Translations under genes and position numbers: made by a program
Shown: one piece after another, positions 2,026 through 31,518 of the stretch
Layout: every line of letters starts with the position of its first letter
How positions within the stretch are numbered: position 1 is the stretch's first letter
The notes under the pieces: generated by a model
The model's database searches: none
The model's input: the letters and a program-made list of their open reading frames with translations, nothing else
Told to the model about the DNA's origin: nothing
Source: Desulfuromonas sp. TF
Lineage (GTDB): Bacteria > Desulfobacterota > Desulfuromonadia > Desulfuromonadales > ATBO01
DNA length: 35,895 bases
Reading direction: 5' to 3'
NCBI RefSeq assembly: GCF_000472285.1
Contig: NZ_KI421424.1
Span: 202,801-238,695, forward strand

Positions 2026-3879
2026 CTAGTGGCTGCCGGAGAAGAAAGCGAAGAGCATCATTATCAGACAGGCTATACCGGTGAAGAAGGCTAGAAAGCC
2101 GAACCCCTTGAAAACGAAATCATAAAGTACCCCGCTGACCCGTGGAGCTACGAACTTTTCTGTAATCCCTTCCTCTTCATAGCGTCGCCACTGGTCCCCG
2201 CGTTCCTCGATGAATTCTTCTTTCGAAATCTGTCCATTGAAGATTACGAAATCCATCGGAAATTTCTCCGGTCTTCCGTGGGTGTTGAAAAAATGCACGG
2301 TGAATATGAAGCCGGTGGCAAGCAGAGCCTCATCGGAATGCACGATGGTGGCAACGTTGAATGTCCATCCTGGCAGGAAGTATCCGAAGAATTCAGGGAA
2401 CCAGAGCATCAGGCCCGAACCGCCGATGGCGAACATCCCCCAGAAAACAGCGAGGAAGTCGAATTTCTCCCAGTAGGTCCAGCGCTCGAAAGTCGGCTTG
2501 GGTCCCTTGAAAAGGAACCATTTTATCATTCCGGTGATATCCCTCAGGTCTCGGAAGTTTGGACAAAGGGAATCCGGACCGAAGAGGCGCTGCAGGAAGT
2601 TGCCTTTGATGTCTTTGCGTAAAAAGAGAAAATCAATGCTCAGCACCAGGGCGCCGAAAAAATAATAAAAAGTCAGGATCGCACAAGCCCGATGAATAAG
2701 ACCGGCATTGTAAGTCCCCCCGTAAAAGGACATCAGGATTTTGGCCCACTGCTCGTCGGCGAACTTGAGCGGCAAGCCGGTCAGGGAAAGGCCGAGGAAG
2801 CTTATGATGACGGTGAGGTGGAGGACGACATGCCTCGGCTTGAAGCGAAGGTACTGCTTATTGCCCTCGGGGATGGCGTGGGCAATGCCGCCGTCGTGCA
2901 GAGCCCGCACCCTTTCGCGATTTTCGACAAAGCCGCGGAACATCCACAGGAGGGTGTGGATCCAGAATACGGCGAACGTTCCGACCAGAAGACTGGTCAT
3001 GCCCAGGAAGGTCCAATAAAGAATCGGATAGTTGTCCCGATCGGAGTGTTCGCCGTGGGAATAATACCGGGTGAAGAGAGAGGTCGCTCCCTCATGGCAC
3101 TGGGAACAAGTCGCTACAAGGTTACTGTCGTTCACGCTCGAATTCGGATCGGATTTCGGCAGGACCGAATGGGAAGAGTGGCAATCGGCGCAACCCGCCA
3201 CCTTTTCAGGGAAGCCGAGATGGTAGTTTTTCCCGTGATAACTCTCCATATAGGTGCCAACGGCAACATTGAAGACACTATTGCGTGCCATCATCTCTTC
3301 ATTGGCGTGGCACGTGAGGCATACCTTGGTATGGAAGTCTCGATTTTCAAAGGAGTTGGGATCCCCAAGGGCCTTGATTTCGTGGAGGTTGTGACAGTCG
3401 TTGCAAGCTGCCGAATCTCCATTCCCGGACATGACCGCCCGACCATGGACTGAATTCAGGTAATTCTCTTCGACATCGTGACATTGCGCGCAGGTTTCAA
3501 CCACCTTGCGCTTGTCATTCTGCCAGTAGGTTGCCGAATGAATTTGGCTGTGACAATCGGCGCAGCCGACATCGTTCAGCATGTGGATGCTGGCATAATG
3601 TTCGGCTGCTTCCTTCTTATGGCAGCGAACACATTTAACCTGCTGGATTTCGATCTCGCCGGCCATGTGCTCGTCCAGGTCGGTGACTTCCACATGACAG
3701 CTGTTGCAGGAATTCTGGCCATGGACGGAAGACGCCATCTCCTCGACGGACACGGTGTCGTCGTGGCATTGCAGACAGCTTGCTGAATCAAGCGCCAAAT
3801 GGGCATCTGCGAAAGCGGTGGCGGCCAGGAAAAGCAATAAAAGGACGATGGGAATCATTCGAAGCGGGCTAGACAGCAT
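2026..3879 (-). CDS. cbcL: CbcL-like nine-heme cytochrome c / cytochrome b fusion (quinol oxidoreductase)
   Basis: From the chosen start the protein is 617 residues: a signal peptide (about 1-24), then nine CxxCH motifs at about 35, 58, 83, 106, 130, 159, 187, 230 and 258, then an integral membrane b-type cytochrome domain with about six helices and several intramembrane histidines (for example in VVLHLTV, GLIHRAC, TVHFFNTH). Nine c-hemes plus a HydC/FdnI-type b domain is the described architecture of Geobacter sulfurreducens CbcL, an inner-membrane menaquinol oxidase used with low-potential extracellular acceptors. The symbol is given by architecture, not by an alignment. An in-frame ATG at 3936 would add 19 residues, but the ATG at 3879 has GAGGAGA 7 nt upstream and begins exactly at the signal peptide. 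The gene leads a cluster with the small membrane protein and the octaheme NapC/NirT cytochrome. Confidence 0.85.
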   Translation of the reverse strand: MLSSPLRMIPIVLLLLFLAATAFADAHLALDSASCLQCHDDTVSVEEMASSVHGQNSCNSCHVEVTDLDEHMAGEIEIQQVKCVRCHKKEAAEHYASIHMLNDVGCADCHSQIHSATYWQNDKRKVVETCAQCHDVEENYLNSVHGRAVMSGNGDSAACNDCHNLHEIKALGDPNSFENRDFHTKVCLTCHANEEMMARNSVFNVAVGTYMESYHGKNYHLGFPEKVAGCADCHSSHSVLPKSDPNSSVNDSNLVATCSQCHEGATSLFTRYYSHGEHSDRDNYPILYWTFLGMTSLLVGTFAVFWIHTLLWMFRGFVENRERVRALHDGGIAHAIPEGNKQYLRFKPRHVVLHLTVIISFLGLSLTGLPLKFADEQWAKILMSFYGGTYNAGLIHRACAILTFYYFFGALVLSIDFLFLRKDIKGNFLQRLFGPDSLCPNFRDLRDITGMIKWFLFKGPKPTFERWTYWEKFDFLAVFWGMFAIGGSGLMLWFPEFFGYFLPGWTFNVATIVHSDEALLATGFIFTVHFFNTHGRPEKFPMDFVIFNGQISKEEFIEERGDQWRRYEEEGITEKFVAPRVSGVLYDFVFKGFGFLAFFTGIACLIMMLFAFFSGSH

Positions 3880-4163
3880 AGTTGTTTCTCCTCGAGTGCA
3901 ATGTGTCTTTTTATGAATTACACAATTAGCATGCATAAATTAAGGAATGCAAAAACTAAACCATCAGGCTATGAGGGAGGTATTGGATTTGAAAGGTAGG
4001 AAGGGAGCTGGACAAGTATGGGATGAAAAGGGGGTAGGGGGAGTGTCGATGGGAAAAGAGATTAACCCAGAAAAGATGCAGGGGGATAAGGACCGTGAAA
4101 TCACGTCAAACAACAGGGATTAAAAGGGTCAAATCACGTAGTGTTCTAAGTCGCTGGCTAATG
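3880..4163. other. Intergenic region upstream of the cytochrome cluster
   Basis: There is no convincing gene here. The stretch is AT-richer than its surroundings and should hold the minus-strand promoter of the CbcL-like gene. TTGCAT and TAATTG about 18 bp apart near 3920-3955 are a weak candidate only. Two copies of AAATCACGT (4098-4106 and 4131-4139) lie 33 bp apart in the same orientation. Confidence 0.4.
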
Positions 4164-4218: not shown

Positions 4219-4485
4219 TTACTTCGCGGCCAGTTCAACCACCTGAGCGGTGAAGGGATTGGCGAAGAGGATGATCATGCACACGACGAAAACGTAGATG
4301 GCCAGGGACTCGATCATAGCCAGACCGATCATCATCGTGGTCAGGATCTTACCGCTGGCGCCGGGATTGCGGGCAACACCCTCGACGGCGCTCTTAATGG
4401 CGAGGCCCTGGCCGAGGCCGGTACCGAAGGAACCGATGGCCATGCCGAATCCGGCAGCGATCATACACCAAGCAAAAAATTCCAT
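4219..4485 (-). CDS. atpE: ATP synthase F0 subunit c
   Basis: The 88-residue hairpin protein forms the membrane rotor ring of F-type ATP synthase. It has two hydrophobic helices joined by the conserved polar loop (RNPGASGK, about 39-46). The ion-binding carboxylate is Glu59 in helix 2, followed by Ser60, and Gln26 lies in helix 1. This Gln/Glu-Ser set resembles the one in Na+-binding rings, but the Thr that follows in Ilyobacter is Leu61 here, so coupling-ion choice is open. AGGAAGGAG about 7 nt upstream is a strong ribosome binding site. It is the last gene of the F0 operon, 68 nt after atpB. Confidence 0.95.
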   Translation of the reverse strand: MEFFAWCMIAAGFGMAIGSFGTGLGQGLAIKSAVEGVARNPGASGKILTTMMIGLAMIESLAIYVFVVCMIILFANPFTAQVVELAAK

Positions 4486-4553
4486 GTGACTTCTCCTTCC
4501 TGTGGGTTGTTTTTCCTATACGATATAGGACTTAAATTTCGCCGTGGGCGAAA

Positions 4554-5228
4554 TCAGTGAGCTTCTTCCAGGGCGCCGGCGATGTAGATCATGGCCAGCA
4601 GGGTAAAGACGAAGGTCTGGATGCAGGCGACCAGCACGCCCATCAGCATCATCGGTACCGGCAGCAGGAACGGTACCAGGGCAAAGAAGATCATCAGGAC
4701 GATTTCATGCCCGTACATGTTCCCGAAGAGACGCAGGGACAGGGAAAGGGGCCGAGCCAGATGGCCGATGATTTCGATGATGAACATCAGGGGGGCCAGC
4801 ACCAGGATCGGCCCCATGAAATGCTTCAGATAGGAGAATCCGTGCTCCTTGAATCCTATGATGTGGGTCATGGCGAAGACCGTGAGGGCCAGTGCGGCAT
4901 TGGTGTTGAGGTTGGCGGTGGGGGGATAGAAACCAGGAATCAGGGCGATCAGGTTGGAAACCAGGATGAACAGGGCAAAGCTGGCGATGAGGGGGAAATA
5001 GGCTTTTCCCTTGGGCCCCATAGTCTCCTCAATAAGATTTTCCACGCCTCCGACAACCACTTCCATGAAGTTCTGCAACCCGGAAGGAACCTCCTTGACT
5101 GCCCGTGAGGCGGCAAAAGCCAGGAGGATGAGGACGATCATCACGAACCAGGTGTAGGTTACGTGTTCGCCGAGGTGAAGGTGCAACTTTTCTTCGAGCC
5201 ACTGCAGGATAAGAAAGGGATGAATCAT
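4554..5228 (-). CDS. atpB: ATP synthase F0 subunit a
   Basis: The 224-residue membrane protein is the stator subunit that provides the half-channels next to the c-ring. The signature [14 protein letters not shown] is present, with the essential arginine at about residue 166 (E. coli Arg210 equivalent). Several hydrophobic helices and the expected length support a complete gene. It lies between atpI and atpE on the minus strand. No atpF, atpH or F1 genes follow, so the rest of the enzyme must be encoded elsewhere, as in Geobacter species where the F0 a/c genes are separate from the F1 operon. Confidence 0.95.
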
Positions 5229-5249
5229 AATGGATTACTGCCTCCTCGT

Positions 5250-5615
5250 TCAGAACGATCTTTTTAATGTGATCCAGAGGATGTTGATAACAACTACCGA
5301 GAGTCCCGCCGACAGGGCGATGGGATGAACCTTCGCCAGGGCAATGAGCAGAAAAAGCGCCGCGGTCAGGGCGCCGAGCCGGACCAGGTAGCTGAACTTA
5401 AAACCTCGCGCGGTATATTGCGATGCTTCGGACAAGGTCAGCTGCAGGGAGCGATGCAGCCAGAGATATCCGATAATGGCCAGCAATCCTCCGGACAGCA
5501 CTCCCAGCGTCACATCGACGGAACGCCAGAGCAGGCTCAGCAGGACAAGTAAGGCCAGGATGATCCAGTTGCGGCGGGAAAGTTCCTCCAGCAGTTGTTC
5601 ATCCTTGTCCTTCAC
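5250..5615 (-). CDS. ATP synthase subunit I family protein (AtpI-like)
   Basis: This small membrane protein has a charged N-terminus (KDKDEQLLEEL) followed by four hydrophobic segments, as in the ATP synthase I family that aids c-ring assembly or Mg2+ supply. The longest frame opens at an ATG at 5654 and would overlap atpZ by 56 bp. The GTG at 5613-5615 is a better start: it gives 121 residues beginning VKDKDEQ and reduces the overlap to 17 bp. The start is not certain because the Shine-Dalgarno signal is weak in both cases. The gene lies between atpZ and atpB, which fixes its role in ATP synthase biogenesis better than its sequence does. Confidence 0.75.
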   Translation of the reverse strand: MKDKDEQLLEELSRRNWIILALLVLLSLLWRSVDVTLGVLSGGLLAIIGYLWLHRSLQLTLSEASQYTARGFKFSYLVRLGALTAALFLLIALAKVHPIALSAGLSVVVINILWITLKRSF

Positions 5616-5856
5616 CGTCTTTTTGATTTTCCTTCTCTTGGCGCTTGAGTTCACGCTCGGTCAGAATATATATATTGCGAAAACCGGAAACCACCCCGAA
5701 TCCCAGAAAAACGAGGGTCAGCCAGGGTGACGTCCCCAACCATTTGTCGAGATAATACCCCATGCCCAGCCCGATGAGCGTCGAGGCAACCATGGAAATC
5801 CCGACACTGGATAAGAAACCCAGTGATTTAATAAGCTGGCGCCTGTCCTCGGCCAT
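5599..5856 (-). CDS. AtpZ/AtpI-type putative F0F1 ATPase subunit
   Basis: The 85-residue protein has two hydrophobic helices around a GLGMGYYLDKWLGTSPW segment typical of the small AtpZ family (PF09527-like) encoded at the head of F0 operons, followed by a charged Lys/Glu-rich C-terminus. The family is thought to help ATP synthase assembly or ion uptake; the exact role is not settled. No Shine-Dalgarno sequence is visible before the ATG at 5856 (the preceding bases are AAAACTCC), so initiation may be inefficient or the start may be misplaced. A 17-bp palindrome-like site lies 8-24 nt upstream of this start and is shared with the nuo operon. Confidence 0.75.
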   Translation of the reverse strand: MAEDRRQLIKSLGFLSSVGISMVASTLIGLGMGYYLDKWLGTSPWLTLVFLGFGVVSGFRNIYILTERELKRQEKENQKDGEGQG

Positions 5857-5863: not shown

Positions 5864-5880
5864 TGTATACAGCATACAGT
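5864..5880. promoter_or_regulatory. Candidate operator shared with the nuo promoter region
   Basis: TGTATACAGCATACAGT lies between the putative F0-operon promoter and the atpZ start. It matches the site at 18519-18535 upstream of nuoA at 15 of 17 positions. Overlapping GTATAC/ATAC half-sites are typical of operators for GntR-family (FadR-type) repressors. Here it would lie downstream of the predicted transcription start, a position suited to repression. The regulator is not in this window as far as I can see. Confidence 0.55.
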
Positions 5881-5899: not shown

Positions 5900-5929
5900 T
5901 AAATAGCACAGGGGTAAGTTGGATGTCAA
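5900..5929 (-). promoter_or_regulatory. Candidate sigma70-type promoter of the F0 operon
   Basis: On the minus strand a perfect TTGACA (5924-5929) is followed after 18 bp by TATTTA (5900-5905) preceded by TGC, an extended -10 pattern. It lies in the gap between the trmJ stop and atpZ and points toward atpZ. The -10 match is only partial. Confidence 0.45.
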
Positions 5930-13095: not shown

Positions 13096-13125
13096 TTGAC
13101 AGAGGGTATACGGCTGGTTTATAAG
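13096..13125 (+). promoter_or_regulatory. Sigma70-type promoter of the rnf operon
   Basis: A perfect TTGACA (13096-13101) is followed after 18 bp by TATAAG (13120-13125). It lies 47 bp before the rnfA start in the divergent hemL-rnfA gap and would give a leader of about 40 nt. Confidence 0.65.
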
Positions 13126-13171
13126 GGAGAAATTTGCCAGGCCAATTTAAGGAATCAAGGAACGGTTTGCA

Positions 13172-13753
13172 ATGGTAGAGCTACTTTTAATACTTATAAG
13201 CGCCATCTTCGTCAACAACTTCGTGCTGGCCCGCTTTCTGGGGATCTGCCCCTTCATGGGGGTGTCCAAGAAGGTGGAGACGGCCCTCGGCATGGGGATG
13301 GCAGTGACCTTCGTGATGACCGTGGCCACGGTGGTGACCTGGTTTATCCAGTATTACGTGCTGATTCCCTTCGGCATCGAGTACCTGCAGACCATCGCCT
13401 TCATTCTGGTGATCGCCTCGCTGGTGCAGCTGGTGGAGATGGTGATCCAGAAGGCCAGCCCGGTCCTGTACCAGTCGCTGGGAATCTTTCTGCCGCTGAT
13501 CACAACCAACTGCGCAGTGCTCGGTCTGGCGGTACTCAACATCCAGAAGGGGTACGGATTTCTCGAAGGGGTAATCTTCGCCATCGGCGCCGCCCTGGGC
13601 TTCACCCTGGCGCTGATTCTCTTCGCCGGCTTGCGCGAGCGCATCGATCTGTGTCCTGTGCCCAAAAGCTTCCGCGGAGCGGCCATCGCCTTTGTCACCG
13701 CCGGTCTGCTGTCGCTGGCGTTCATGGGGTTTGCGGGACTGGTAAAAGGTTAA
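13172..13753 (+). CDS. rnfA: Rnf complex membrane subunit RnfA
   Basis: The 193-residue protein with six hydrophobic helices is the RnfA/RsxA subunit of the ferredoxin:NAD+ oxidoreductase that pumps Na+ or H+. Family features include [20 protein letters not shown] at the N-terminus, with the conserved Cys that binds the intramembrane iron centre together with RnfE, and [12 protein letters not shown] in the middle carrying the second conserved Cys. AAGGA lies about 10 nt upstream. It is first in rnfABCDGE, the gene order of the proteobacterial type. Confidence 0.95.
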
Positions 13754-18518: not shown

Positions 18519-18535
18519 TGTATACAGTATACTGT
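18519..18535. promoter_or_regulatory. Candidate operator upstream of nuoA
   Basis: TGTATACAGTATACTGT contains most of a perfect 16-bp palindrome, ATACAGTATACTGTAT (18522-18537), and matches the site upstream of atpZ (5864-5880) at 15 of 17 positions. It lies 9 bp upstream of the TTGACA at 18545. GTATAC cores of this type are common in GntR-family operators. The regulator's identity is not known from this window. Confidence 0.6.
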
Positions 18536-18544
18536 ATTTTTCCC

Positions 18545-18573
18545 TTGACAACGTATGTGAATTGTCTTAACTT
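18545..18573 (+). promoter_or_regulatory. Candidate promoter of the nuo operon
   Basis: A perfect TTGACA (18545-18550) lies 96 bp before nuoA. The -10 candidates at 15-17 bp spacing (within CTTAACTT, 18566-18573) are poor matches, so only the -35 box is well supported. Confidence 0.4.
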
Positions 18574-18646: not shown

Positions 18647-19003
18647 ATGCTAGAGAGTTATCTGCCGATACTCGTCCTCGTCGCCATCGCCTTTGCTTTC
18701 GCCGTGGGTTCCGTCGTCATGTCCAGGCTGGTGGGGATGAAAAAGCCGACCGCCGTCAAGCTGGCTCCCTACGAATGCGGCATGCCGCCGGTGGGGACGG
18801 CCCGGGAGCGGGTTTCCGTCAAGTTCTACATTGTCGCCATGCTCTTTATTCTCTTCGATATAGAAGCGGTCTTCCTCTACCCTTGGGCGGTGATGTTCAA
18901 GCGTCTCGGGATGTTCGGCTTCATCGAAATGGGAGTATTCATCGTCATCCTCCTCGTCGGTTATGTTTACGTTTGGAAAAAAGGAGCGCTGGAATGGGAG
19001 TAG
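18647..19003 (+). CDS. nuoA: Complex I subunit A
   Basis: The 118-residue membrane protein has three hydrophobic helices and the family segment [22 protein letters not shown] between helices 1 and 2 (key part [11 protein letters not shown]), followed by [17 protein letters not shown]. It is the small membrane subunit at the junction of the peripheral and membrane arms near the quinone site. GGGAGGAGC about 7 nt upstream is a strong binding site. It opens the 14-subunit nuo operon and overlaps nuoB by 10 bp. Confidence 0.96.
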
Positions 19004-19503
19004 AGCAACCGCTGGGAAATAATGTCATTCTCACCAGTCTGGATAAGCTGGTCAACTGGTCCCGGTCCAGATCCCTGTGGCCGATGACCTTCGGTCTGGC
19101 CTGCTGCGCCATCGAGATGATGGCGACCGGCGCCGCCCGCTTCGACCTCGACCGGCTGGGGGTGCTGTTCCGCGCCTCCCCCCGCCAGGCCGACTGCATC
19201 ATTATCGCCGGAACGGTGACCAAGAAAATGCTCCCCGCCATCAAGACCGTTTATGAACAGATGCCCGAACCAAGGTATGTCATCGCCATGGGCGCCTGTG
19301 CCTGCTCGGGTGGGATTTTCGACACCTACAGTGTGGCACAGGGGATTGACGAGACCTTGCCGGTGGACGTGTATATCCCCGGCTGTCCTCCCCGGCCCGA
19401 GGGACTGCTCTATGGTCTTGGCAAGCTTCAGGAGAAGATCATGAAGGAACGCAATTCTTTCGGCGCCGCCCTCGGGTTCGGCGAAGTGGTCAACGAGGCT
19501 TAA
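18994..19503 (+). CDS. nuoB: Complex I subunit B (cluster N2)
   Basis: The 169-residue peripheral-arm subunit holds the terminal [4Fe-4S] cluster N2 that reduces quinone. The ligands are the adjacent Cys37-Cys38 pair ([10 protein letters not shown]), Cys102 (MGACACSGG) and Cys131 (IPGCPPRPE). Upstream frame extension to 18775 lies inside nuoA. The ATG at 18994 has AAGGAG about 7 nt upstream and gives the usual N-terminus. It overlaps the nuoA end by 10 bp. Confidence 0.96.
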
Positions 19504-19542
19504 TGCCGGTCGGTAATCGGAAAACGAGATAGGAATTACGAT

Positions 19543-20025
19543 ATGACTGAAAATGCTGCCGTCGGCAAACTCAAGGAGAAATTCTCCGGTTCCGTTCTGG
19601 ATGTCACCGAGTTTCGGGGGGAAACAACCGTCACGGTCAAAAAAGAGGACATAGTCGCCATCTGCGCCTTTGCGAAGAAGGAGCTGGGGTACAATCTGCT
19701 CAGCGACGTGTGCGGTGTCGATTACCTCGGTCGGGCTCCCCGGTTCATGGTGGTCTATCACCTCTTCAATATCTCCACAAAGGAGCGCCTGCGCCTTAAG
19801 GCTCCTGTGGAAGAGAAGGATCCCAGGATCGATACGGTCAGCGGAATCTGGGCCACCGCCAACTGGCATGAGCGCGAATGCTGGGATCTGATGGGAATCG
19901 TTTTCAACAATCATCCCGACCTGCGCCGGATTCTCATGCCCGATGACTGGGAAGGGCATCCGTTGCGCAAGGATTATCCGCTGCAGGGGCCTGATCGCGA
20001 ACCGTATCAGGGGCGTCTTTCCTAA
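19543..20025 (+). CDS. nuoC: Complex I 30-kDa subunit C
   Basis: The 160-residue protein matches the 30-kDa subunit: SDVCGVDYLG in the middle, then the signature ERECWDLMGIVFNNHPDLRRILMPDDWEGHPLRKDYP (key parts ERECWDLMGI and GHPLRKDYPL). It sits next to NuoD and supports the quinone-reactive module. nuoC and nuoD are separate genes here, unlike the nuoCD fusion of E. coli. Confidence 0.95.
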   Translation: MTENAAVGKLKEKFSGSVLDVTEFRGETTVTVKKEDIVAICAFAKKELGYNLLSDVCGVDYLGRAPRFMVVYHLFNISTKERLRLKAPVEEKDPRIDTVSGIWATANWHERECWDLMGIVFNNHPDLRRILMPDDWEGHPLRKDYPLQGPDREPYQGRLS

Positions 20026-20063
20026 ATTTTCAGGAAATCACCTTTTCTATAGAAGAGGATATT

Positions 20064-21242
20064 ATGGCTATGACCGAAGTAATGACGGTAAACATGGGGC
20101 CCCAGCACCCTTCGACCCACGGGGTGTTGCGCCTGGTCCTCGAGCTCGACGGCGAGGTGATCGTCAAGGCCACCCCCCATATCGGTTTTCTGCACCGAGG
20201 CGTGGAAAAGCTCTCCGAGTATCGCACTTACCACCAGACCCTTCCCCTGACCGACCGTCTCGATTATCTCGCGCCTATGAGCAATAATCTCGGTTATGTC
20301 CTTGCGGTGGAGAAGCTTCTGGGTCTCACAGACGCCATTCCCGAGCGGGCTCAGACGATCCGCGTGATCATGGCGGAGTTGACCCGTTTGAAGAGCCACC
20401 TGGTCTGGCTGGCCTGCCACGCACTGGACATCGGCGCCATGACGGTTTTTCTCTATTGCTTCCGCGAGAGGGAAAACGTCATGGATATCTACGAGCAGGT
20501 TTCCGGGGCCCGCATGACCTCCAATTACTTCCGTGTCGGCGGCCTTTCGGACGATTTTCCCGATGGGCTCGAAAAGAAGATCCGCGACTTCGTCGATGAA
20601 ATGCCCGGACATGTCGACACTTATGAGGGGCTGCTCACCGGCAACAAGATCTGGCAGAAGCGTACCCAGGGAGTCGGCGTGATCAGCGCCGAGGATGCCA
20701 TCAATATCGGATTGACCGGTCCCGCCCTGCGTGGTTCGGGTGTCGATCTCGACCTGCGCAGGGACAATCCCTACAGCGGCTATGAGAAGTACGATTTCGA
20801 GGTGCCGACCAGCACCGAGTGTGACACCTGGGCCCGCTATCTCGTAAGGCTGACCGAGATGCGTCAGTCCTGCCGGATTCTCCGACAGGCCCTTGACAGC
20901 CTCAAACCCGGACCGATTCTGGCCGACGCCCCCAAGGTCTGCCTTCCCCCGAAAAAAGACGTGGTCAATACCATCGAGGGACTGATCCATCAATTCAAGA
21001 TCATCACCGAGGGGTTCAAACCCGAGCCCGGCGAGGTCTATCAGGAGATTGAGGCGCCCAAGGGGATTCTCGGCTATTACATTATTTCGGACGGTTCGGC
21101 CAAACCCTACCGGATGAAGATCCGGCCGCCCTCCTTCGTCAACCTGCAGGCCCTTCCCCAGATGGTGGAGGGGAGCTTGATCGCTGACGCTGTGGCGGTA
21201 ATCGGCACCCTGGACATCGTCCTCGGCGAAATCGACCGCTAA
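20064..21242 (+). CDS. nuoD: Complex I 49-kDa subunit D
   Basis: The 392-residue protein is the hydrogenase-like 49-kDa subunit lining the quinone cavity. It begins with the conserved NMGPQHPSTHGVLRL loop, followed by IGFLHRGVEKL and the YLAPMSNN segment, all at the quinone site. AGAGGA about 6 nt upstream supports the start. A 528-codon frame on the opposite strand over this gene is a coding shadow. Confidence 0.96.
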   Translation: MAMTEVMTVNMGPQHPSTHGVLRLVLELDGEVIVKATPHIGFLHRGVEKLSEYRTYHQTLPLTDRLDYLAPMSNNLGYVLAVEKLLGLTDAIPERAQTIRVIMAELTRLKSHLVWLACHALDIGAMTVFLYCFRERENVMDIYEQVSGARMTSNYFRVGGLSDDFPDGLEKKIRDFVDEMPGHVDTYEGLLTGNKIWQKRTQGVGVISAEDAINIGLTGPALRGSGVDLDLRRDNPYSGYEKYDFEVPTSTECDTWARYLVRLTEMRQSCRILRQALDSLKPGPILADAPKVCLPPKKDVVNTIEGLIHQFKIITEGFKPEPGEVYQEIEAPKGILGYYIISDGSAKPYRMKIRPPSFVNLQALPQMVEGSLIADAVAVIGTLDIVLGEIDR

Positions 21243-21269
21243 CCGTTCACGGGACGAGAGAGGTATCTC

Positions 21270-21767
21270 ATGAGCAACGCTGCGGAAAACGTACAGGAGC
21301 AGGAAATCGATCTGGCCGGGGCCAACCAGGTCATCGACAAATATCTCGATATGAAGGGCGCCCTGATGCCGGTCCTTCAGGGAATTCAGGAATTTTACGG
21401 CTATGTCCCTGAGCCGACCGTGCCCCTGGTTGCCGAGCGGCTGAACGTGTACCCGAGTCAGATCTACGGGGTTCTGACCTTTTATGCCCAGTTCCACCTG
21501 AAGCCTCGCGGCAAGTATATTGTCCGCGTCTGCATGGGAACCGCCTGTCACGTCAAGGGCGCTGGGCGAATCGCCGGGACCCTTGAGGAGCGCCTCGGGA
21601 TCACCCACGCGGAGACGACCGAGGATCTCAAGTTCACTGCTGAATACGTGGCCTGCATCGGCGCCTGTGGAATGGCGCCGGTCATCATGGTCAACGATGC
21701 GACCTACGGCAGCATGTCGGTGCAGAAGATGGATGAGGTCATTGCGAAATACAAGGCCATGGAATAG
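21270..21767 (+). CDS. nuoE: Complex I 24-kDa subunit E ([2Fe-2S] N1a)
   Basis: The 165-residue protein has an N-terminal helical part and a thioredoxin-like [2Fe-2S] domain. Its four ligands are intact: Cys88 and Cys93 (CMGTAC), Cys129 and Cys133 (CIGAC). It pairs with NuoF in the NADH dehydrogenase module. Confidence 0.96.
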   Translation: MSNAAENVQEQEIDLAGANQVIDKYLDMKGALMPVLQGIQEFYGYVPEPTVPLVAERLNVYPSQIYGVLTFYAQFHLKPRGKYIVRVCMGTACHVKGAGRIAGTLEERLGITHAETTEDLKFTAEYVACIGACGMAPVIMVNDATYGSMSVQKMDEVIAKYKAME

Positions 21768-21811
21768 GTCTGGGACTCTCTTTAACTATCATCGAGCGGG
21801 GATAGATTGAT

Positions 21812-23593
21812 ATGGCCGCAAACGCTGAAAACATAAAAGTTCTGATCTGCCAGGGTACCGGAGGCCTGGCCTCCGGGGCCGCCGCGGTCGCCAAGGCTTT
21901 CGAGGATGAGTTCGCCAGGCAGGGCGTGGAAGCCAAGGTCGGCAAGCGCTGCGAAGTGGTCGGCACCGGCTGCCGCGGACTCTGCGCCAATGACGTGCTG
22001 GTCGATATCGTTCTTCCCGGCCAGGAGGCCGTGACCTACGATTTCGTCACTCCCGAGCTGGTTCCGCAGATTGTCGAGGAGCACGTCCTCGCCAACGAGC
22101 CGATCGCGAAGAAGAAGGCCGGTCCGTACTACGCCAAGTTTCTCGAGAAGCAGCAGCGGATTATCTTCTCCCGCTGCGGCACGGTCAACGCCGAAAGCCT
22201 CGACGACTTCCTCGCTCACAATGGATTCACCGGGATCAAGAAGGCCGTGACCATGACTCAGGCCGAGGTCATCGACGAGGTCAAGCGTTCCGGTCTGCGC
22301 GGCCGGGGGGGCGGCGGCTTCCCCACCGGTGTCAAATGGTCCTTTTGCGCCGCTTCCCCCGGTAAGACCAAGTACCTGATCTGCAACGCCGACGAAGGGG
22401 ACCCAGGGGCCTTCATGGACCGTTCCATCCTCGAAGGCGACCCCTACGGCCTCATCGAAGGGATGATGATCGGTGCCTATGCCATCGGCTGCACCTTCGG
22501 GTATGTCTATGTTCGCGCCGAGTATCCCCTGGCCATCAAGCGGCTGCAGATGGCCATCGATACCTGTTACGAGAAGGGTTTCCTCGGCAAAAACTGCATG
22601 GGTCTGGGCTTTGACTTCGACCTCCGCATCAAGGCCGGCGCCGGGGCCTTCGTCTGTGGCGAAGAGACGGCGCTGATGGCCTCCATCGAGGGGCACCGCG
22701 GTATGAGCCGCCCCCGACCCCCCTTTCCGGCGGTGCGGGGCCTGTGGGGCTACCCGACCAACATCAACAACGTCGAGACCTTCGCCAACGTCTCCTACAT
22801 CTTCTATAACGGCGCCGACTGGTACAGCTCTATCGGCACCGAAGGGACAAAAGGGACCAAGATCTTCGCCCTCACCGGAAAAGTCAAACATACCGGTCTT
22901 GTCGAGGTTCCCGCCGGCACCACCATGAAAGAGGTCATCTACGACGTCTGCGGCGGCATCCTGAACAATCGTAAATTCAAGGCGGTTCAGGCCGGCGGAC
23001 CCTCCGGCGGCTGTCTGCCCGAGGCCGCACTGAACGCGGAAGTCGACTACGATTCCCTGATCAAGGCCGGCGCCATGATGGGATCCGGCGGACTGGTGGT
23101 CATGGACGAGACGACCTGCATGGTCGATATCGCCCGCTTCTTCCTGAACTTCACCCGGGTCGAATCCTGCGGCAAATGCATCCCCTGCCGGATCGGTCTT
23201 AAGATCATGCTCGAGATACTCGAGCGGATCACCAAGGGCGAGGGTCGCGAAGGAGACCTGGAAACACTCGAGGACATGGCCTACGACATCAAGAAGAGTT
23301 CCCTCTGCGGACTCGGTCAGACCGCCCCGAATCCTGTCCTCTCCACGCTTCGATACTTCCGCCACGAGTATGAGGCGCACATCAAGGAAAAGCGTTGCCC
23401 TTCCAATTCCTGCAAGGATCTTCTCAAGTTCGAAGTGGTGGAAGGCGCCTGTAAAAAATGCGGCCTGTGCTTCAAAATCTGTCCGGTGGACGCCGTTACT
23501 TGGGAAAAAGGCGGGGTGGCGATCATCGATAAGGAGAAATGCACCAAGTGCACCTCCTGTTACGATGCCTGCCGCTTCATGGCAATCGAGTAA
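21812..23593 (+). CDS. nuoF: Complex I 51-kDa subunit F, long form with extra Fe-S domains
   Basis: The 593-residue protein contains the NADH and FMN sites and cluster N3 of complex I. It is longer than E. coli NuoF (about 445). An N-terminal thioredoxin-like domain (about 1-120) and a C-terminal 2[4Fe-4S] ferredoxin domain (CKKCGLCFKICP, CTKCTSCYDAC) are added, as in NAD-linked [FeFe]-hydrogenase subunits. The core has GLRGRGGGGFPTG and ICNADEGDPGAFMDR for FMN/NADH, and ESCGKCIPCR plus a later Cys for N3. In the N-terminal domain Cys13, Cys54 and Cys58 are present, but the expected Cys at position 18 is Gly (CQGTGGLASG). That cluster may be absent or differently ligated. Confidence 0.95.
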   Translation: MAANAENIKVLICQGTGGLASGAAAVAKAFEDEFARQGVEAKVGKRCEVVGTGCRGLCANDVLVDIVLPGQEAVTYDFVTPELVPQIVEEHVLANEPIAKKKAGPYYAKFLEKQQRIIFSRCGTVNAESLDDFLAHNGFTGIKKAVTMTQAEVIDEVKRSGLRGRGGGGFPTGVKWSFCAASPGKTKYLICNADEGDPGAFMDRSILEGDPYGLIEGMMIGAYAIGCTFGYVYVRAEYPLAIKRLQMAIDTCYEKGFLGKNCMGLGFDFDLRIKAGAGAFVCGEETALMASIEGHRGMSRPRPPFPAVRGLWGYPTNINNVETFANVSYIFYNGADWYSSIGTEGTKGTKIFALTGKVKHTGLVEVPAGTTMKEVIYDVCGGILNNRKFKAVQAGGPSGGCLPEAALNAEVDYDSLIKAGAMMGSGGLVVMDETTCMVDIARFFLNFTRVESCGKCIPCRIGLKIMLEILERITKGEGREGDLETLEDMAYDIKKSSLCGLGQTAPNPVLSTLRYFRHEYEAHIKEKRCPSNSCKDLLKFEVVEGACKKCGLCFKICPVDAVTWEKGGVAIIDKEKCTKCTSCYDACRFMAIE

Positions 23594-23599
23594 ATCCCC

Positions 23600-23638
23600 G
23601 TGAGGAGTGAGGCATCCCCTCACATTTCGCGCCTCACT
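23600..23638 (+). repeat. Overlapping alternative hairpins between nuoF and nuoG
   Basis: GTGAGG (23600-23605) can pair with CCTCAC (23618-23623), and AGTGAGGC (23606-23613) with GCCTCACT (23631-23638). The two pairings cross, so they exclude each other or form a pseudoknot. They lie in the longest gap inside the nuo operon apart from the leader, 20 nt before the nuoG start. No T-run is present. Confidence 0.45.
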
Positions 23639-23658
23639 TCCTGTGATACGAGGTTGAG

Positions 23659-26139
23659 ATGGTAAATCTTACGATTGACGGTAAACAGGTCAAGGTTGGC
23701 AAGACGGCTACCATTTACGAGGCGGCCCAAGAGGCCGGCATCCACATTCCGGTTCTCTGCTATGCCAAGAAACTGCTCCCCTACGGCGCCTGCCGGGTCT
23801 GCCTGGTGGAAGTAGAGCAGATGAAAGGACGCCTGATCCCCTCCTGCACCACCCCTGTTACCGAAGGGATGGTGGTGACAACTTCGACACCTGAAATCGT
23901 CAAGGTGCGCAAGACGGTTCTTGAATTTCTGCTGGTCAACCACGTGATCGAATGTCCCGTCTGCGACAAGGGAGGCGAGTGCGACCTGCAGGACCTGACC
24001 TACGAATTCGGACTCAGCACCAACCGCTTCGAGGGTGAAAAGTTCGCCCTGCCGACCGATGAGATCAATCCGTTGATCGAACGCAACATGAACCGTTGCG
24101 TGCTCTGCGGCAAGTGCGCCCGGGTCTGCGATGAAATCGTCGCTTATGGGTCCTATTCTTTCATCAACCGAGGTTTTGAATCGAAGATCGCCACCGCCTT
24201 CGACCGGGGCCTCAACTGCGAATTCTGCGGCCAGTGCGTCTCCATGTGCCCGGTTGGCGCCATCCTCCCGCGTCCCTTCAAGTTCAAGGCCCGCCCCTGG
24301 CAGCTCAAGGAGGTAGACTCGGTCTGCGGTTACTGCGGCAACGGCTGCACCGTCACCCTCGGTGTTCTGGGCGACAAGGTCGAGACCATCCGCTTCAACG
24401 ACAAAACCGGGGTCAATGACGGCAACCTGTGCATCCGCGGGCGTTTCGGCTATTCCTACGTCAACAGCGGAGATCGCCTGACCAAGCCGCTGTTGCGTAA
24501 GGATGGACAGCTGGTGGAGGTCGACTGGAAGGAAGCCATTGATGCCGTCGTCGATGGCTTCGGCAAAGCCAGAACGGAAAAAGGCCTGGGCATTCTTTCA
24601 GGGGCGCGCCTGACCAACGAGGAGCTTTTCCTTCTGAAGAATCTGGCACAGACCTTGGGAACCGGAAATCTCGACCATTCCGGGGGGGAGTGCTACAAAG
24701 GGCTCACAGAAGGTCTCAAGGAGACCCTCGGGGTAACCGCCTCCACCGCAACCTTCCCCCAGGTGGAAGAGTGCGACGTCATTCTCGCCATTCGCTCCGA
24801 TTTCTACGAGACCCATCCGGTCTTCGGCATGGTGGTCAATCAGGCTGTCAAGCGCCACGGCGCCAAGCTCCTGGTGGTCTCCGATAAGAAGGGCAAATTC
24901 ACCAAGCTGCCGAATGCCCAGACCCTGCTCAATGCACCCGGGCTTGAAGTCAACGTGCTCAATGCCATGGCCCAAACCCTGCTGGAGGAGAATTTGGCGG
25001 TGATCGACGGCGTCGATGGAAGCGCCGAATTCAAGATCTCGCTGACGGATTACACCCCTGAAATAGTTGCCAAGCAGACTGGCGTTGCGGCCGATGCGAT
25101 CAGAGAGGCCGCCCGCAAGCTGGCTGCCGCTAAAAAGAGCGCCATCCTTCTCGCCTATGGTCTGCCCTATACGGGCGCCAGCCGCGAACTGGGGATCGCC
25201 GCCGCGAACCTGGCCATTCTCACCGGCAGTGCCGGGCGGCAAGGGAGCGGGCTGTACATCTGCGGGGAAAAGGCCAACAGCCAGGGGGCCGTCGATCTGG
25301 GCATCCTTCCCGCAGGGGGAGCACTAGGCGCCCAAGGGATGCTGAAGGCCGCTGCCGCAGGAGACCTATCCGCTCTTTATGTCGTCGGCGAGGATCCCCT
25401 TTCCTCTTATCCGGACCGGGACCAGGTTGAAGCTGCTCTCGAAAAAGCGTCCTTTGTGGTGGTTCAGGATATTTTTCTGACTCCCACCGCCGAAAAGGCA
25501 GACGTGGTCCTTCCCGCCGTCTCCTTTGCCGAGAAGGATGGAACCTTCACCAATGCCGAACGCCGTCTGCAGAGGGTGCGGCGGGGCATTCCCTCTCCGG
25601 GGGACGCAAAGTCCGATTTCGCTATTTTCGAGATGCTGGCCGCCCGTTGCGGCAGCCCTGTCAAGTATACGGGACCGGCCGCAGTTTTCACCGAGATCAC
25701 CGCCTCGATTCCCGAGTATGCCGGCATCTCCTTTGATTCCATCGGTCCGAAGGGGATTGTCTGGGGGGGTGAGACTCTGGCTCCAGCCAGAAAAAAGGTT
25801 CTTCCCGCCGCCGGCGGCAAGGCTTCCGAGGGCCCTTTCACTCTGGTGACGGGCAGCGCCCTCTACCACAGCGGCACCGTTTCGACCCGGGCCAAAGGGC
25901 CCATGGCCGTGGTTTCCGAACCCTATATCGAACTGGCCCGCGAGGATGCTTCGGCGCTGAAGGTCAATGAAGGCGATCTGCTTACCGTAAAGGGGAACGG
26001 TGCCGAGATCAAGCTCAAGGCCAGGATCGGGACCCGGCTTCCGAAGGGAGTTCTCTTTGCTCCCTATCATTTCGGAGGAGCCGGCATCAACCGCCTGTAC
26101 AAAGGGCAAACTGCCGTTGCAGTTCAGCTGAGCAAGTAG
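23659..26139 (+). CDS. nuoG: Complex I 75-kDa subunit G
   Basis: The 826-residue protein forms the Fe-S wire of the NADH arm. In order it has a [2Fe-2S] ferredoxin domain (Cys34, 45, 48, 62), the HxxxCxxCxxxxxC motif (HVIECPVCDKGGEC), two CxxCxxCxxxC motifs (CVLCGKCARVC, CEFCGQCVSMC), and an extra CxxCxxxC plus distant Cys motif (CGYCGNGC, later GNLCIRG) of the N7 type. A molybdopterin-oxidoreductase-like domain follows and ends in a molydopterin-dinucleotide-binding-like C-terminus. The cofactor is not expected in complex I. The start follows a hairpin region; its binding site (GAGG) is modest. Confidence 0.95.
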   Translation: MVNLTIDGKQVKVGKTATIYEAAQEAGIHIPVLCYAKKLLPYGACRVCLVEVEQMKGRLIPSCTTPVTEGMVVTTSTPEIVKVRKTVLEFLLVNHVIECPVCDKGGECDLQDLTYEFGLSTNRFEGEKFALPTDEINPLIERNMNRCVLCGKCARVCDEIVAYGSYSFINRGFESKIATAFDRGLNCEFCGQCVSMCPVGAILPRPFKFKARPWQLKEVDSVCGYCGNGCTVTLGVLGDKVETIRFNDKTGVNDGNLCIRGRFGYSYVNSGDRLTKPLLRKDGQLVEVDWKEAIDAVVDGFGKARTEKGLGILSGARLTNEELFLLKNLAQTLGTGNLDHSGGECYKGLTEGLKETLGVTASTATFPQVEECDVILAIRSDFYETHPVFGMVVNQAVKRHGAKLLVVSDKKGKFTKLPNAQTLLNAPGLEVNVLNAMAQTLLEENLAVIDGVDGSAEFKISLTDYTPEIVAKQTGVAADAIREAARKLAAAKKSAILLAYGLPYTGASRELGIAAANLAILTGSAGRQGSGLYICGEKANSQGAVDLGILPAGGALGAQGMLKAAAAGDLSALYVVGEDPLSSYPDRDQVEAALEKASFVVVQDIFLTPTAEKADVVLPAVSFAEKDGTFTNAERRLQRVRRGIPSPGDAKSDFAIFEMLAARCGSPVKYTGPAAVFTEITASIPEYAGISFDSIGPKGIVWGGETLAPARKKVLPAAGGKASEGPFTLVTGSALYHSGTVSTRAKGPMAVVSEPYIELAREDASALKVNEGDLLTVKGNGAEIKLKARIGTRLPKGVLFAPYHFGGAGINRLYKGQTAVAVQLSK

Positions 26140-26159
26140 TTCGCCATTCAGGAGAGTTT

Positions 26160-27122
26160 ATGGACTGTCCCAAGTGTAAGTCTCCCGTTTCCGCCCGGTC
26201 CAGATTCTGCGACCAGTGCGGGACCAACCTGGTGAAGAATGTCGAGTTCCTGCATCAGAGGGCGCTCGATCATTATCACCGCGGACTCATCGACGAGGCC
26301 GTAAAGCTTTGGGACGAAGCTCTGAGCGAGAATCCGGAGTTCAGCAAGGGATACTACTATAAGGGACTAGCTCTGTATGACCGGGGAGATCTGCAGCTTG
26401 CCGTCGACGCCTTCAACAAAGCGCTCGAAAAAGAGCGGGAACCCTTCCGTGTGTATTTTAAGCTGGGAATGGCCCAGTACGGACTGGGGGACCTGGCGGC
26501 GAGCTCGGAGAGCTTCCGCAAGGCGCTGAAGATCAATCCCGGCAGCGCCGAGACCCATTATCGCCTGGGACTCTCCCACCTGCGCAATTCCGATCTGGAT
26601 CAAGCGCAGGAAGCCCTTGAACAGGCCATCCGGATCAATCCCAAATACACTCGGGCCCTCTACATCCTCGGCATGGTCCTCTCCCAGAAAGGTGATCACG
26701 CCAAGGCGATCGACCAGTTCAGCAAGGTCGTGGAGATCAGCCCCTCCTATACTGCCGCCCGCTTCGATCTGGGCATGGCTCTGTTCAAGGAGGGGGATAT
26801 GCCGCAGGCCGTCGAGCAGTTCGGCAAGGCGGTGGAAACCAGTGCCCGTTTTGCTCCCGGATATTTCATGCTCGGCGAGGCTTATCGCAAAATGGGGGAA
26901 TTCGGAGATGCCATCAGCGCCTACAATCAACTGCTCAAGCTCAACCCGGTGGATGCTGACGCCTATGTTCGCCTGGCCGAATGCAATATGCAGCTCGATT
27001 TGATGGATGCCGCCCGCGAAGCTCTGAGCAAGGCGCTGGCCATCAACCCGAACAACCGTGATGCCCAATATCTGCAAAAGCATCTGGGCGAGATGACAAC
27101 GCCCCATAAACCCGGATTTTAG
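26160..27122 (+). CDS. Zinc-ribbon TPR protein inside the nuo operon
   Basis: The 320-residue protein starts with a zinc ribbon (CPKC at 3-6, CDQC at 17-20) and then carries about eight tetratricopeptide repeats to the C-terminus (repeating ...A...YxLGxxxxxxGDxxxAxxxFxKAxxxxP). It has no signal peptide or membrane helix, so it is probably cytoplasmic. The canonical nuoA-N order has no such gene. It sits 20 nt after nuoG and 47 nt before nuoH, has a good AGGAGAG site and reads in the operon direction, so it is almost surely co-transcribed. Likely roles are an assembly or stability factor at the junction of the peripheral (nuoE-G) and membrane (nuoH) modules, or an unrelated passenger. The function is inference only. 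Confidence 0.85.
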   Translation: MDCPKCKSPVSARSRFCDQCGTNLVKNVEFLHQRALDHYHRGLIDEAVKLWDEALSENPEFSKGYYYKGLALYDRGDLQLAVDAFNKALEKEREPFRVYFKLGMAQYGLGDLAASSESFRKALKINPGSAETHYRLGLSHLRNSDLDQAQEALEQAIRINPKYTRALYILGMVLSQKGDHAKAIDQFSKVVEISPSYTAARFDLGMALFKEGDMPQAVEQFGKAVETSARFAPGYFMLGEAYRKMGEFGDAISAYNQLLKLNPVDADAYVRLAECNMQLDLMDAAREALSKALAINPNNRDAQYLQKHLGEMTTPHKPGF

Positions 27123-27169
27123 TTCCTCGTAGAATAAGAGCCTAACTGCTTTAAGGAAGAGGATAGATT

Positions 27170-28207
27170 ATGGAAATGTTGAGTCTGTCGAATGCGCCGC
27201 TCTGGTTCGTAGTCGCAATGATGGTGAAGATTGTGACCGTCTTTGCCGTGGTCATGGGAATCGTCGCTTACGCCACTTGGGTGGAGCGCAAGGTCATTGG
27301 CCACATGCAGACCCGTCTCGGGCCGATGAACACAGGCTGGCACGGTCTTCTGCAGCCCATCGCCGACGGTCTCAAACTCTTCTTCAAGGAAGATATCATT
27401 CCGGCCGAAGCGAGCAAAGTGCCCTTCATCCTGGCGCCCATGATGATTCTCGTCCCCGCCCTGATTACCGTTGCGGTCATTCCCTTCGGACCCGACATGG
27501 AAATTGGCGGTTACCTTATTCCGATGCAGATCACCGATCTGAATATTGGCATCCTCTACATCCTGGCCATGGCCGGACTTGGTGTCTACGGCATTGTCCT
27601 CGCCGGCTGGGCCTCCAACAACAAGTATTCCCTGATGGGGGGAATCCGCTCCTCGGCGCAGATGGTTTCCTATGAACTCGCCGCCGGGCTCTCCATCGTT
27701 GCTGTCTTCATGCTCTCTGAAACCCTGAGCCTGCGCGGCATCGTTGAGGCCCAGCAGGGTCCCTGGCTTGAGGCCCTCCCCTTTATCCCCAACTGGTACA
27801 TCTTCTCCCAGCCATTGGCCTTCGGGCTCTTCGTGATATGCGGTCTGGCCGAGATCAACCGTACTCCCTTCGACCTTCCCGAGGCAGAGACGGAGCTGGT
27901 GTCCGGATTCTGCACCGAATATTCGTCCATGAAATACGCCCTCTTCTTCATGGCCGAATACGCCAACATGATCGTCATCTCCGCCATTGCAGCGACCCTC
28001 TTCCTCGGCGGCTGGGCTGGACCGTTTCCCGGCGCGATCAATCTACTGTTGAAGATCTTCGCCTTCATGTTCTTCTTCATGTGGTTGCGCGCCACCTGGC
28101 CGCGCGTCCGCTATGACCAGCTGATGTATCTGGGATGGAAGATCTTCCTCCCTCTCTCACTGGCCAATATCGTGGTGACAGGCGCCGTCGTCGTCCTTCT
28201 GCAGTAA
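27170..28207 (+). CDS. nuoH: Complex I membrane subunit H
   Basis: The 345-residue, roughly eight-helix subunit connects the quinone site to the ion pumps. Conserved features are the WVERKVIGHMQTRLGPM segment near residues 35-50, FFKEDIIPAEASK, and EINRTPFDLPEAETELVSGF (loop near 230) with several quinone-chamber acidic residues. It follows the TPR gene and precedes nuoI. Confidence 0.96.
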   Translation: MEMLSLSNAPLWFVVAMMVKIVTVFAVVMGIVAYATWVERKVIGHMQTRLGPMNTGWHGLLQPIADGLKLFFKEDIIPAEASKVPFILAPMMILVPALITVAVIPFGPDMEIGGYLIPMQITDLNIGILYILAMAGLGVYGIVLAGWASNNKYSLMGGIRSSAQMVSYELAAGLSIVAVFMLSETLSLRGIVEAQQGPWLEALPFIPNWYIFSQPLAFGLFVICGLAEINRTPFDLPEAETELVSGFCTEYSSMKYALFFMAEYANMIVISAIAATLFLGGWAGPFPGAINLLLKIFAFMFFFMWLRATWPRVRYDQLMYLGWKIFLPLSLANIVVTGAVVVLLQ

Positions 28208-28234
28208 TCCTAACCCAGACAAGAGGATAGACCC

Positions 28235-28630
28235 ATGTTCAAAGAGTTTGTCAAAGGTCTGAGCATCACCTTCAAGCACATGCTCCCGGGGCATTCGACC
28301 ACGGTACAGTACCCCAAGCAGAAGCTTCAGCCTTCCGAGCGGTTCCGCGGTCTGCATCGGCTGGTGCCGACCCAGGACCGGGAGAAGTGCGTGGCCTGCT
28401 ATCTCTGCCCGACGGTCTGCCCGGCAAAGTGCATCACCGTAGAATCGGCAGAGAACGAAAAGGGGGAGAAGTATCCCAGGGTCTACAAGATCGATCTTCT
28501 GCGATGCATCTTCTGTGGATACTGCGTGGAGGCCTGCCCCGTCGAGGCTATTGAGATGACCGGAAATTACGAGCTGGCCAATTACAAGCGCGAAGATTTC
28601 AACTTCACCAAAGAGCGGCTTCTCAAGTAA
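28235..28630 (+). CDS. nuoI: Complex I subunit I (clusters N6a/N6b)
   Basis: The 131-residue ferredoxin-like subunit carries two [4Fe-4S] motifs, CVACYLCPTVCP and CIFCGYCVEACP, which bind N6a and N6b on the path to N2. It is shorter than E. coli NuoI (180), mainly at the C-terminus, but the Fe-S core is complete. It follows nuoH after 27 bp. Confidence 0.95.
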   Translation: MFKEFVKGLSITFKHMLPGHSTTVQYPKQKLQPSERFRGLHRLVPTQDREKCVACYLCPTVCPAKCITVESAENEKGEKYPRVYKIDLLRCIFCGYCVEACPVEAIEMTGNYELANYKREDFNFTKERLLK

Positions 28631-28651
28631 GCAAATAGGAGTGCTGAACTC

Positions 28652-29155
28652 ATGGAAATTCTGTTTTTTTATCTGGTCGCCCTGATTGCAGTAATCTCCG
28701 GATTTCTGGTGATCACCTGCAAGAACCCGGTCAACAGCGCCATCTCCCTGGTGATGACCTTCGTCTGCCTGGCCACTTTCTACGTCATGCTCAAGGCGCC
28801 ATTCATGGCCGCCATCCAGATCATGGTCTACGCCGGCGCCATCATGGTTCTGATCGTCTTCGTCATCATGCTGCTCAACCTCGGAACCGTCACCCGGACC
28901 AAAACCTCCCATTCCGTCGCCGGCGGTGCGGTGGCTGGGGCCCTGGTGCTCTTTCAGATGGTGTATCTCATGAGTCGCGGCGAGCCTTCCGGGGCGGTCG
29001 GAGAGATCACCAATGAAGTGGTGCAGAGCGTGGGACATACGGAACTGATCGGGCGAGCTCTGTTCATCGATTTTCTGCTGCCTTTTGAAATCACTTCCAT
29101 CTTGCTCCTGGTAGCCATGATCGGCGCCGTGGTGCTGGCCAAGAGAACCGTCTAG
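28652..29155 (+). CDS. nuoJ: Complex I membrane subunit J
   Basis: The 167-residue protein has five hydrophobic helices and the family segment IQIMVYAGAIMVLIVFVIML (helix 3, which contains the pi-bulge in solved structures). It is an antiporter-adjacent membrane subunit. It lies between nuoI and nuoK with short gaps. Confidence 0.95.
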   Translation: MEILFFYLVALIAVISGFLVITCKNPVNSAISLVMTFVCLATFYVMLKAPFMAAIQIMVYAGAIMVLIVFVIMLLNLGTVTRTKTSHSVAGGAVAGALVLFQMVYLMSRGEPSGAVGEITNEVVQSVGHTELIGRALFIDFLLPFEITSILLLVAMIGAVVLAKRTV

Positions 29156-29181
29156 CTGTAGACAAGGACAGGAGATAGAAC

Positions 29182-29490: not shown

Positions 29491-29538
29491 GTTCACCCGG
29501 GTTCGGTTAGGGGCTCAATCCGTTTAGAGGAGATATAG

Positions 29539-31479: not shown

Positions 31480-31518
31480 AGAACGCCGTCAGTTTTTCGA
31501 TATAAGGAGCGATTTCCC

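Follow-up and report, generated by a model that had tools for sequence, protein, structure and literature searches.

The two similar 17-bp sites before the F0 ATP synthase operon and the nuo operon of Desulfuromonas sp. TF are very probably, judging from sequence comparison, operators of one autorepressed GntR-family regulator with an FCD ligand domain, and the genes of the TCA cycle, NADH dehydrogenase and ATP synthase would make up a single regulon. By this comparison the operator is real and conserved, the assignment to the GntR/FCD regulator is confident and the predicted energy-metabolism regulon is large and coherent. Both sites are located in the window, i.e. the whole stretch of 35 895 nucleotides that was analysed.

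The sites, TGTATACAGCATACAGT at 5864-5880 and TGTATACAGTATACTGT at 18519-18535, have identical bases at 15 of 17 positions, as an earlier note on this DNA had stated. They share a 13-bp palindrome core, GTATACWGTATAC, found with one mismatch at 5865-5877 and exactly at 18520-18532; the nuo copy is a perfect palindrome save for its central base. A scan of the window with both 17-mers as one pattern (up to three mismatches) gave five matches in all: the two sites themselves without mismatch, the nuo site read twice more in shifted or reverse form, and a segment at 2957 with three mismatches. In 100 shuffled windows the same pattern produced on average 0.11 matches, with the largest number being 1. 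At up to three mismatches the window has no third good copy of the 17-mer, and on this point too the earlier note was correct.

The candidate operator of the F0 operon, atpZ-atpI-atpB-atpE, is on the minus strand (5865-5877; GTATGCTGTATAC in the operon direction), 8 bp 5′ of the atpZ ATG and within the predicted leader. The four genes occupy 4219-5856 on the same strand (Pfam ATPase_gene1, ATP-synt_I, ATP-synt_A and ATP-synt_C). A sigma-70-type F0 promoter at 5900-5929 was predicted by reading the sequence: TTGACA (5929-5924, minus strand), 18 bp and TATTTA (5905-5900); TTGAC boxes like this one are also visible 5′ of atpZ in the relatives compared. At nuoA, the candidate operator (18520-18532, plus strand; GTATACAGTATAC) has a -35 box 12 bp downstream, the predicted nuo promoter at 18545-18573 consisting of TTGACA (18545-18550), 17 bp and TAACTT (18568-18573). 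Overlapping the operator, 7 bp closer to the promoter, is a second register (18527-18539, plus strand) that includes a third half-site (GTATACTGTATTT). The nuo operon from nuoA onward extends over 18647-34577 (plus strand) according to ORF order; its proteins identified by Pfam are NuoA, NuoD-type, NuoH-type and NuoL-type only (Oxidored_q4, Complex1_49kDa, NADHdh and Proton_antipo). The claim that each site stands beside a perfect TTGACA holds for nuoA and fails for atpZ, where the box is 46 bp away with the -10-like TATTTA in between. Within 13096-13172 a single half-site, GTATAC, stands between the boxes of a TTGACA-17-TTATAA-like promoter that precedes rnfA-type genes (recognised by eye); it does not amount to a full operator.

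In the 4.40 Mb genome (4 402 753 bases) GTATACWGTATAC occurs at ten places with at most one mismatch, five of them exact, while base composition would lead one to expect about 2.0 and 0.05, respectively. All ten places sit 8 to about 193 bp 5′ of gene starts and none of the ten is inside a recognised gene; the random matches within coding regions that the earlier note had named as evidence against its idea were thus not found. The looser pattern GTATACNGNATAC, at up to one mismatch, produced 39 genome matches (20 forward and 19 reverse), with 13 and 9 for its reversed control; the background of this pattern is real.

The ten target loci were annotated with NCBIfam and Pfam. Besides atpZ and nuoA in the window they include gltA (citrate synthase), acnB (aconitase B) and icd (monomeric NADP isocitrate dehydrogenase), the last followed by genes for malate dehydrogenase and a 2-oxoacid:acceptor oxidoreductase (kor; its alpha subunit was assigned by model and the others by eye). 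Further targets are a pyruvate:ferredoxin-oxidoreductase-type (2-oxoacid:ferredoxin oxidoreductase) gene behind recR; the F1 ATP synthase operon (b-type subunits, delta, alpha, gamma, beta and epsilon) behind parB-like and bactofilin-like genes, both recognised by eye; a GltD-like gene with a NuoF-type cluster and then a NuoG-like gene, which we take to be sfrBA-type genes; glyQ-glyS with the pyruvate phosphate dikinase gene ppdK (L225:717-6608, contig 7 of the genome); and the gene of a GntR/FCD regulator on contig 11, outside the window. Several sites are located between divergent genes, and in such cases the target was picked because the same target recurs elsewhere. Matches before gltA and the F1 operon had been anticipated. 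The proposed co-control of generation and use of the proton-motive force was drawn too narrowly, as the predicted regulon extends to the TCA cycle, the SfrAB-type genes and glyQS-ppdK. A tRNA synthetase (glyQ-glyS) is an odd member of an energy regulon, and that operator may in fact be there for pyruvate phosphate dikinase.

The operators of the regulator gene and of the F1 operon are some 9 kb apart. The regulator, a protein of 236 aa, combines an N-terminal GntR winged-helix domain (PF00392, E-value 2.7e-19, residues 13-74) with a C-terminal all-helical FCD ligand domain (PF07729, E-value 2.9e-28, residues 84-203), an architecture shared with regulators of the PdhR, PmiR and VanR/Atu1419 type. 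The fold model (mean pLDDT 86.5, pTM 0.70) matched two-domain FCD structures (PmiR, VanR-type, AlkR and TM0439) with Z of 17.8-22.5; for PmiR (7xp0) Z was 21.0 with rmsd 2.8 over 199 aligned residues and 34% identity, and for the C-terminal domain of PdhR (5tpm) Z was 18.3 with rmsd 1.9 over 137. PdhR is a regulator of central metabolism, its palindrome differs from GTATACWGTATAC, and the regulon predicted here is wider than that of the PdhR, PmiR or VanR/Atu1419 type. The metal-dependent FCD subgroup of TM0439 type has a three-His metal site, while some FCD proteins have no such site. In an alignment of 30 rows, H139 and H183 were His in all; the third ligand position, His in PmiR, was Thr in 21, Asn in eight and Ala in one, and the three-His site was thus absent from the regulator in these 30 rows. 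With the third His replaced, metal binding by the regulator, if any, would differ from that of TM0439.

The promoter of the regulator's own gene points to this protein as the binder. We took 80 relatives of the regulator from named genome contigs; nearly all were labelled Desulfuromonadales, Desulfuromonadaceae, Geobacteraceae, their genera, or Deltaproteobacteria, with one Chloroflexi and one Desulfobacteraceae. Two loci (L069 and L097) with <100 bases upstream were left out. In all 78 remaining loci the palindrome was present 5′ of the regulator gene at up to one mismatch, and in 75 of them it was exact. TTGA[CA] was found exactly 12 bp 5′ of the palindrome in 67 loci, TACAAT across its 3′ end in 68, and both boxes in 65. 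The gntR operator occupies, in the Desulfuromonas genome as in the 65 loci with both boxes, the spacer of a TTGACA-16-TACAAT promoter; this is the layout of autorepression, and we propose that the regulator represses its own gene from there. On these grounds the GntR/FCD protein is likely to be the binder of the palindrome. The earlier suggestion of a single regulator for both operons gains computational support from the upstream position of all ten genome sites and from one GntR/FCD gene carrying the site in 78 of 78 loci; the same autogenous sites also favour, computationally, its preference for a GntR-family protein over the Geobacter regulator HgtR.

A second GntR/FCD protein (PF00392 and PF07729) is encoded between the F1 operon and the first regulator (L228:8911-9636, minus strand, contig 11 of the genome), and shares the neighbourhood of the latter. 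That this protein is the binder appears very improbable and was rejected: its identity to the first is 27% (217 residues), its gene was found in nine of the 80 regulator loci (flanks of up to 10 kb, E-value ≤ 1e-40), and it has no palindrome upstream, the exact copies in the 16-kb stretch being only those at F1 and at the first gntR. The DNA upstream of the second gene contains, near the start, TGGTCATACCA, presumably a FadR-type half-site arrangement and possibly an operator of its own.

For the co-occurrence of site and regulator we scanned 277 genomes of the class, calling the regulator at E-value ≤ 1e-40 and the site as the exact 14-mer TGTATACWGTATAC. The regulator was present in 219 genomes and the exact site in 235; the site was seen in 215 of the 219 genomes with the regulator versus 20 of the 58 without. 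Presence of the site thus goes largely with that of the regulator, a match that the earlier note had proposed to look for. Reversed TGTATACWGTATAC was found in none of the 277 genomes. Fisher's test for the association gave p = 1.7e-27, a value that overstates independence, since the 277 genomes are related. Four genomes (G218, G264, G266 and G268) have the regulator and lack the exact site. From 38 of the 42 site-less genomes the regulator is absent as well, and these belong to several distinct groups: family f11 (4 genomes), family f17 (14), parts of f19 (3) and f22 (3), genera g59 (1), g60 (2) and g72 (8), and G028, G072 and G238. Among the 20 genomes with the site and without the regulator, 14 are <90% complete, and in one (G100) the regulator match is cut off where a contig ends. 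The remaining five, all near-complete (G101, G217, G229, G244 and G248), combine exact sites with distant GntR proteins only, or none; these count against strict coupling. An assembly gap or a substitute regulator could be behind these five cases.

The same data bear on the view that the sites are non-regulatory, being UP-element-like A/T-rich segments or chance palindromes near promoters. An A/T-rich stretch does follow the nuo site and adjoins its -35 box. This view seems hardly credible, given the empty reversed control of the exact 14-mer, the conservation of palindromes in leaders as well as upstream, and a site presence that tracks the regulator.

In family f17 (G109-G122) and genus g72 (G192-G199) both the regulator and the exact sites are missing group-wide; NuoA matches there are distant or missing, which suggests a different energy metabolism. 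We considered whether genus g72, with its eight genomes, could be Geobacter in the narrow sense and found no support for this: the best PpcA matches were 47-68% identical in seven of the eight genomes and the eighth had none, compared with 77% in a Geobacter-like genome of another order (G155; identity to the PDB 1os6 protein).

HgtR (GSU3364) was considered first as the binder, since its targets matched. It is reported to lower gltA, atpG and nuoA (PMC7726332), classes that were found here by site only; hydrogen is said to induce it (PMC7894505), and it has been invoked to explain lower acetate metabolism under hydrogen (PMC8691401). If the palindrome were the operator of this hydrogen-induced repressor, the GntR gene would be merely another HgtR target. 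We regard this as unlikely and set it aside: the sites track the GntR gene both within the class and in the wider phylum, and the locus tag GSU3364 differs from GSU3370, a GntR-family protein of G. sulfurreducens said to bind the gltA promoter, in a statement citing Ueki and Lovley 2010 (PMC10599522). Moreover, the GSU3364 gene is described as predicted to be RpoN-dependent, with an enhancer-binding-protein gene upstream (PMC2725144), whereas gntR genes mostly have a predicted sigma-70-type promoter (TTGACA-16-TACAAT) around the operator. In the Geobacter-like genome, inspection by eye of about 9 kb around gntR revealed no enhancer-binding-protein gene. HgtR is reported to act on target classes similar to those predicted here; it is a separate gene, with reported induction by hydrogen and a predicted RpoN promoter.

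The regulator is probably the orthologue of GSU3370 and not HgtR, given the GntR family of both proteins and the operator that Desulfuromonas sp. TF and the Geobacter-like genome, which stood in for G. sulfurreducens, carry before gltA as well as before the GntR/FCD gene. On the simplest view, the promoters on which GSU3370 and HgtR act overlap. According to the 2023 paper, little is known of the mechanism and role of GSU3370; an operator and a wider regulon are absent from the description available there (PMC10599522), and both are predicted for the regulator here. In the literature on HgtR and on GntR, TCA and ATP synthase control in Geobacter, as far as these texts were available, the palindrome was not found as a described operator; Ueki and Lovley 2010 (NAR 38:810) may already show the site.

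Conservation of the two window sites was compared in the 30 loci nearest by NuoA and the 30 nearest by AtpB (in each case the own locus and 29 relatives). The nuo site was present at up to one mismatch in 30 of 30 loci (two exact, own included); the gap from operator to TTGAC[AT] was 12 bp in 24 loci and 10 bp in six, and the third half-site, NGTATTT, followed in 27, again with the own locus. Six regulator-bearing genomes of other families or orders were compared as well, and all had the nuo site, exact in five and with a single mismatch in the sixth; a TTGACA did not follow it in every genome. At atpZ, nine of 30 loci had an upstream site at up to one mismatch; in eight of them, own included, it started 20-24 bp before atpZ, and the ninth (G084), counted separately, was some 100 bp above this position. 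Allowing two mismatches raised the number at the atpZ position from 8/30 to 9/30, own included. The conservation among relatives that was expected before both operons is thus complete for nuo and patchy for atpZ; we take the nuo site to be old and stable and the atpZ site to come and go. In 13 genomes lacking the regulator, the nuo locus kept the operator at up to one mismatch in 11 and lost it in two, G129 and G130, which have a recognisable nuo promoter. Nine of the 11 keepers (G028, G054, G057, G058, G063, G070, G149, G156 and G208) are 66-89% complete; the other two, G101 and G244, are near-complete.

In the Desulfuromonas genome, with promoter boxes predicted by eye, three promoters (icd-mdh-kor, acnB and the 2-oxoacid oxidoreductase gene) have the site over the predicted -10 region; at atpZ, F1, glyQS and sfrBA it lies at or after the predicted start, and it precedes the -35 box by 12 bp at nuo and by 8 bp at gltA. 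At all promoters except nuo and gltA this placement is what a repressor needs, which suggests repression there; the nuo and gltA sites are not in simple-repressor positions and could serve to repress or to activate. E. coli FadR is a precedent for dual control by a GntR regulator. One may therefore consider, as a special case of the main reading, a position-dependent dual regulator that represses icd, acnB, gntR, F0 and F1 and activates nuo and gltA. The nearly fixed distance of the nuo operator from TTGAC[AT], which puts its centre near -54, and the third half-site on its promoter-ward side are in favour of such a regulator, as is gltA of the same genome, arranged like nuo with a gap of 8 bp. 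Yet the geometry is not universal: in the Geobacter-like genome the nuo operator is downstream of the predicted -10 box, and no TTGACA follows the operator of gltA. We consider dual control possible, and hold to it only tentatively.

The main reading, with the atpZ and nuoA sites as operators of one GntR/FCD regulator, would work as follows. A dimer of the regulator would bind the palindrome and, where bound at or after the start (atpZ, F1, glyQS and sfrBA), would block the polymerase. A small metabolite of acetate or TCA metabolism, binding to the FCD domain, would release or reshape DNA binding; the enzymes that would then respond together are citrate synthase, aconitase, isocitrate dehydrogenase, NADH dehydrogenase and ATP synthase. 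Such metabolites are proposed as ligands from pathway logic only. Geobacter and its relatives oxidise acetate via the TCA cycle and pass the electrons outwards. If the reading is true, one operator with its regulator governs citrate synthase, aconitase, isocitrate and malate dehydrogenases, NADH dehydrogenase and, besides SfrAB-type genes, the two halves of ATP synthase, and the regulator could offer a means of controlling strains used for current production and bioremediation. The proposed circuit for the control of central metabolism in Geobacter-like bacteria can now be put to a direct test. A concrete role would also be given to a GntR protein described as little known (PMC10599522); its targets are proposed here for 14 genomes of the class, and 235 of 277 carry the exact site.

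All ten sites of the Geobacter-like genome at up to one mismatch were upstream of genes. Seven targets are common with Desulfuromonas sp. TF (gltA, icd, nuoA, gntR, acnB, F1 and sfrB); the other three are frd/sdhCAB, a class I fumarase and a succinyl-CoA:acetate CoA-transferase. In 12 further genomes of the class there were 52 exact sites, 45 of which were at gntR (10), icd (9), F1 (7), glyQ (6), nuoA (4), frd/sdhC (4), acnB (2), mdh (2) or gltA (1). Two more were at a multihaem cytochrome gene after atpE, one was at a pyruvate carboxylase gene some 350 bp away, and four were other or unclear cases with no fitting target; mdh, the multihaem cytochromes and pyruvate carboxylase were named by eye. 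By eye we also noted an exact operator just 5′ of the start of a small minus-strand gene near an XRE-type regulator (L118:1501, genome G257), possibly in a mobile region.

In a sample of the phylum, 71 of 395 genomes had a regulator match at E-value ≤ 1e-50, 54 of them outside the class. Upstream DNA was examined for 20 of the 54: in 18 of these 20 regulator relatives (46-57% identity) a site at up to one mismatch was found ≤400 bp upstream, seven of the sites being exact. Four outside-class genomes (G467, G494, G302 and G449) had 24 places at up to one mismatch, read in 23 loci. Here gntR was a target in four of four by coordinates; in G467 Pfam identified nuoA, and in G449 it identified citrate synthase. 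Neighbours resembling thiolase, acetate permease, malate dehydrogenase, NuoE/F and methionine synthase were recognised by eye only, and several sites had no obvious target. At this threshold the reversed control matches as well (1 and 1 in G155, 2 and 2 in G467). One could speculate that the autorepressed GntR/FCD protein is an ancient, phylum-wide master switch, sensing a TCA- or acetyl-CoA-related metabolite, repressing most TCA, SfrAB and ATP synthase promoters, activating nuo and gltA by operator position and so setting, in Desulfobacterota, how carbon oxidation is balanced against NADH entry and ATP synthesis; in this full form the idea is doubtful, if conceivable.

In two other genomes (loci L149 and L159) an exact operator is located between atpE and multihaem cytochrome genes, and the cytochrome module may belong to the regulon there. 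In the window, two multihaem cytochrome genes follow atpE at 316-1482 and 2026-3936 (minus strand), and one of them is NapC/NirT-like.
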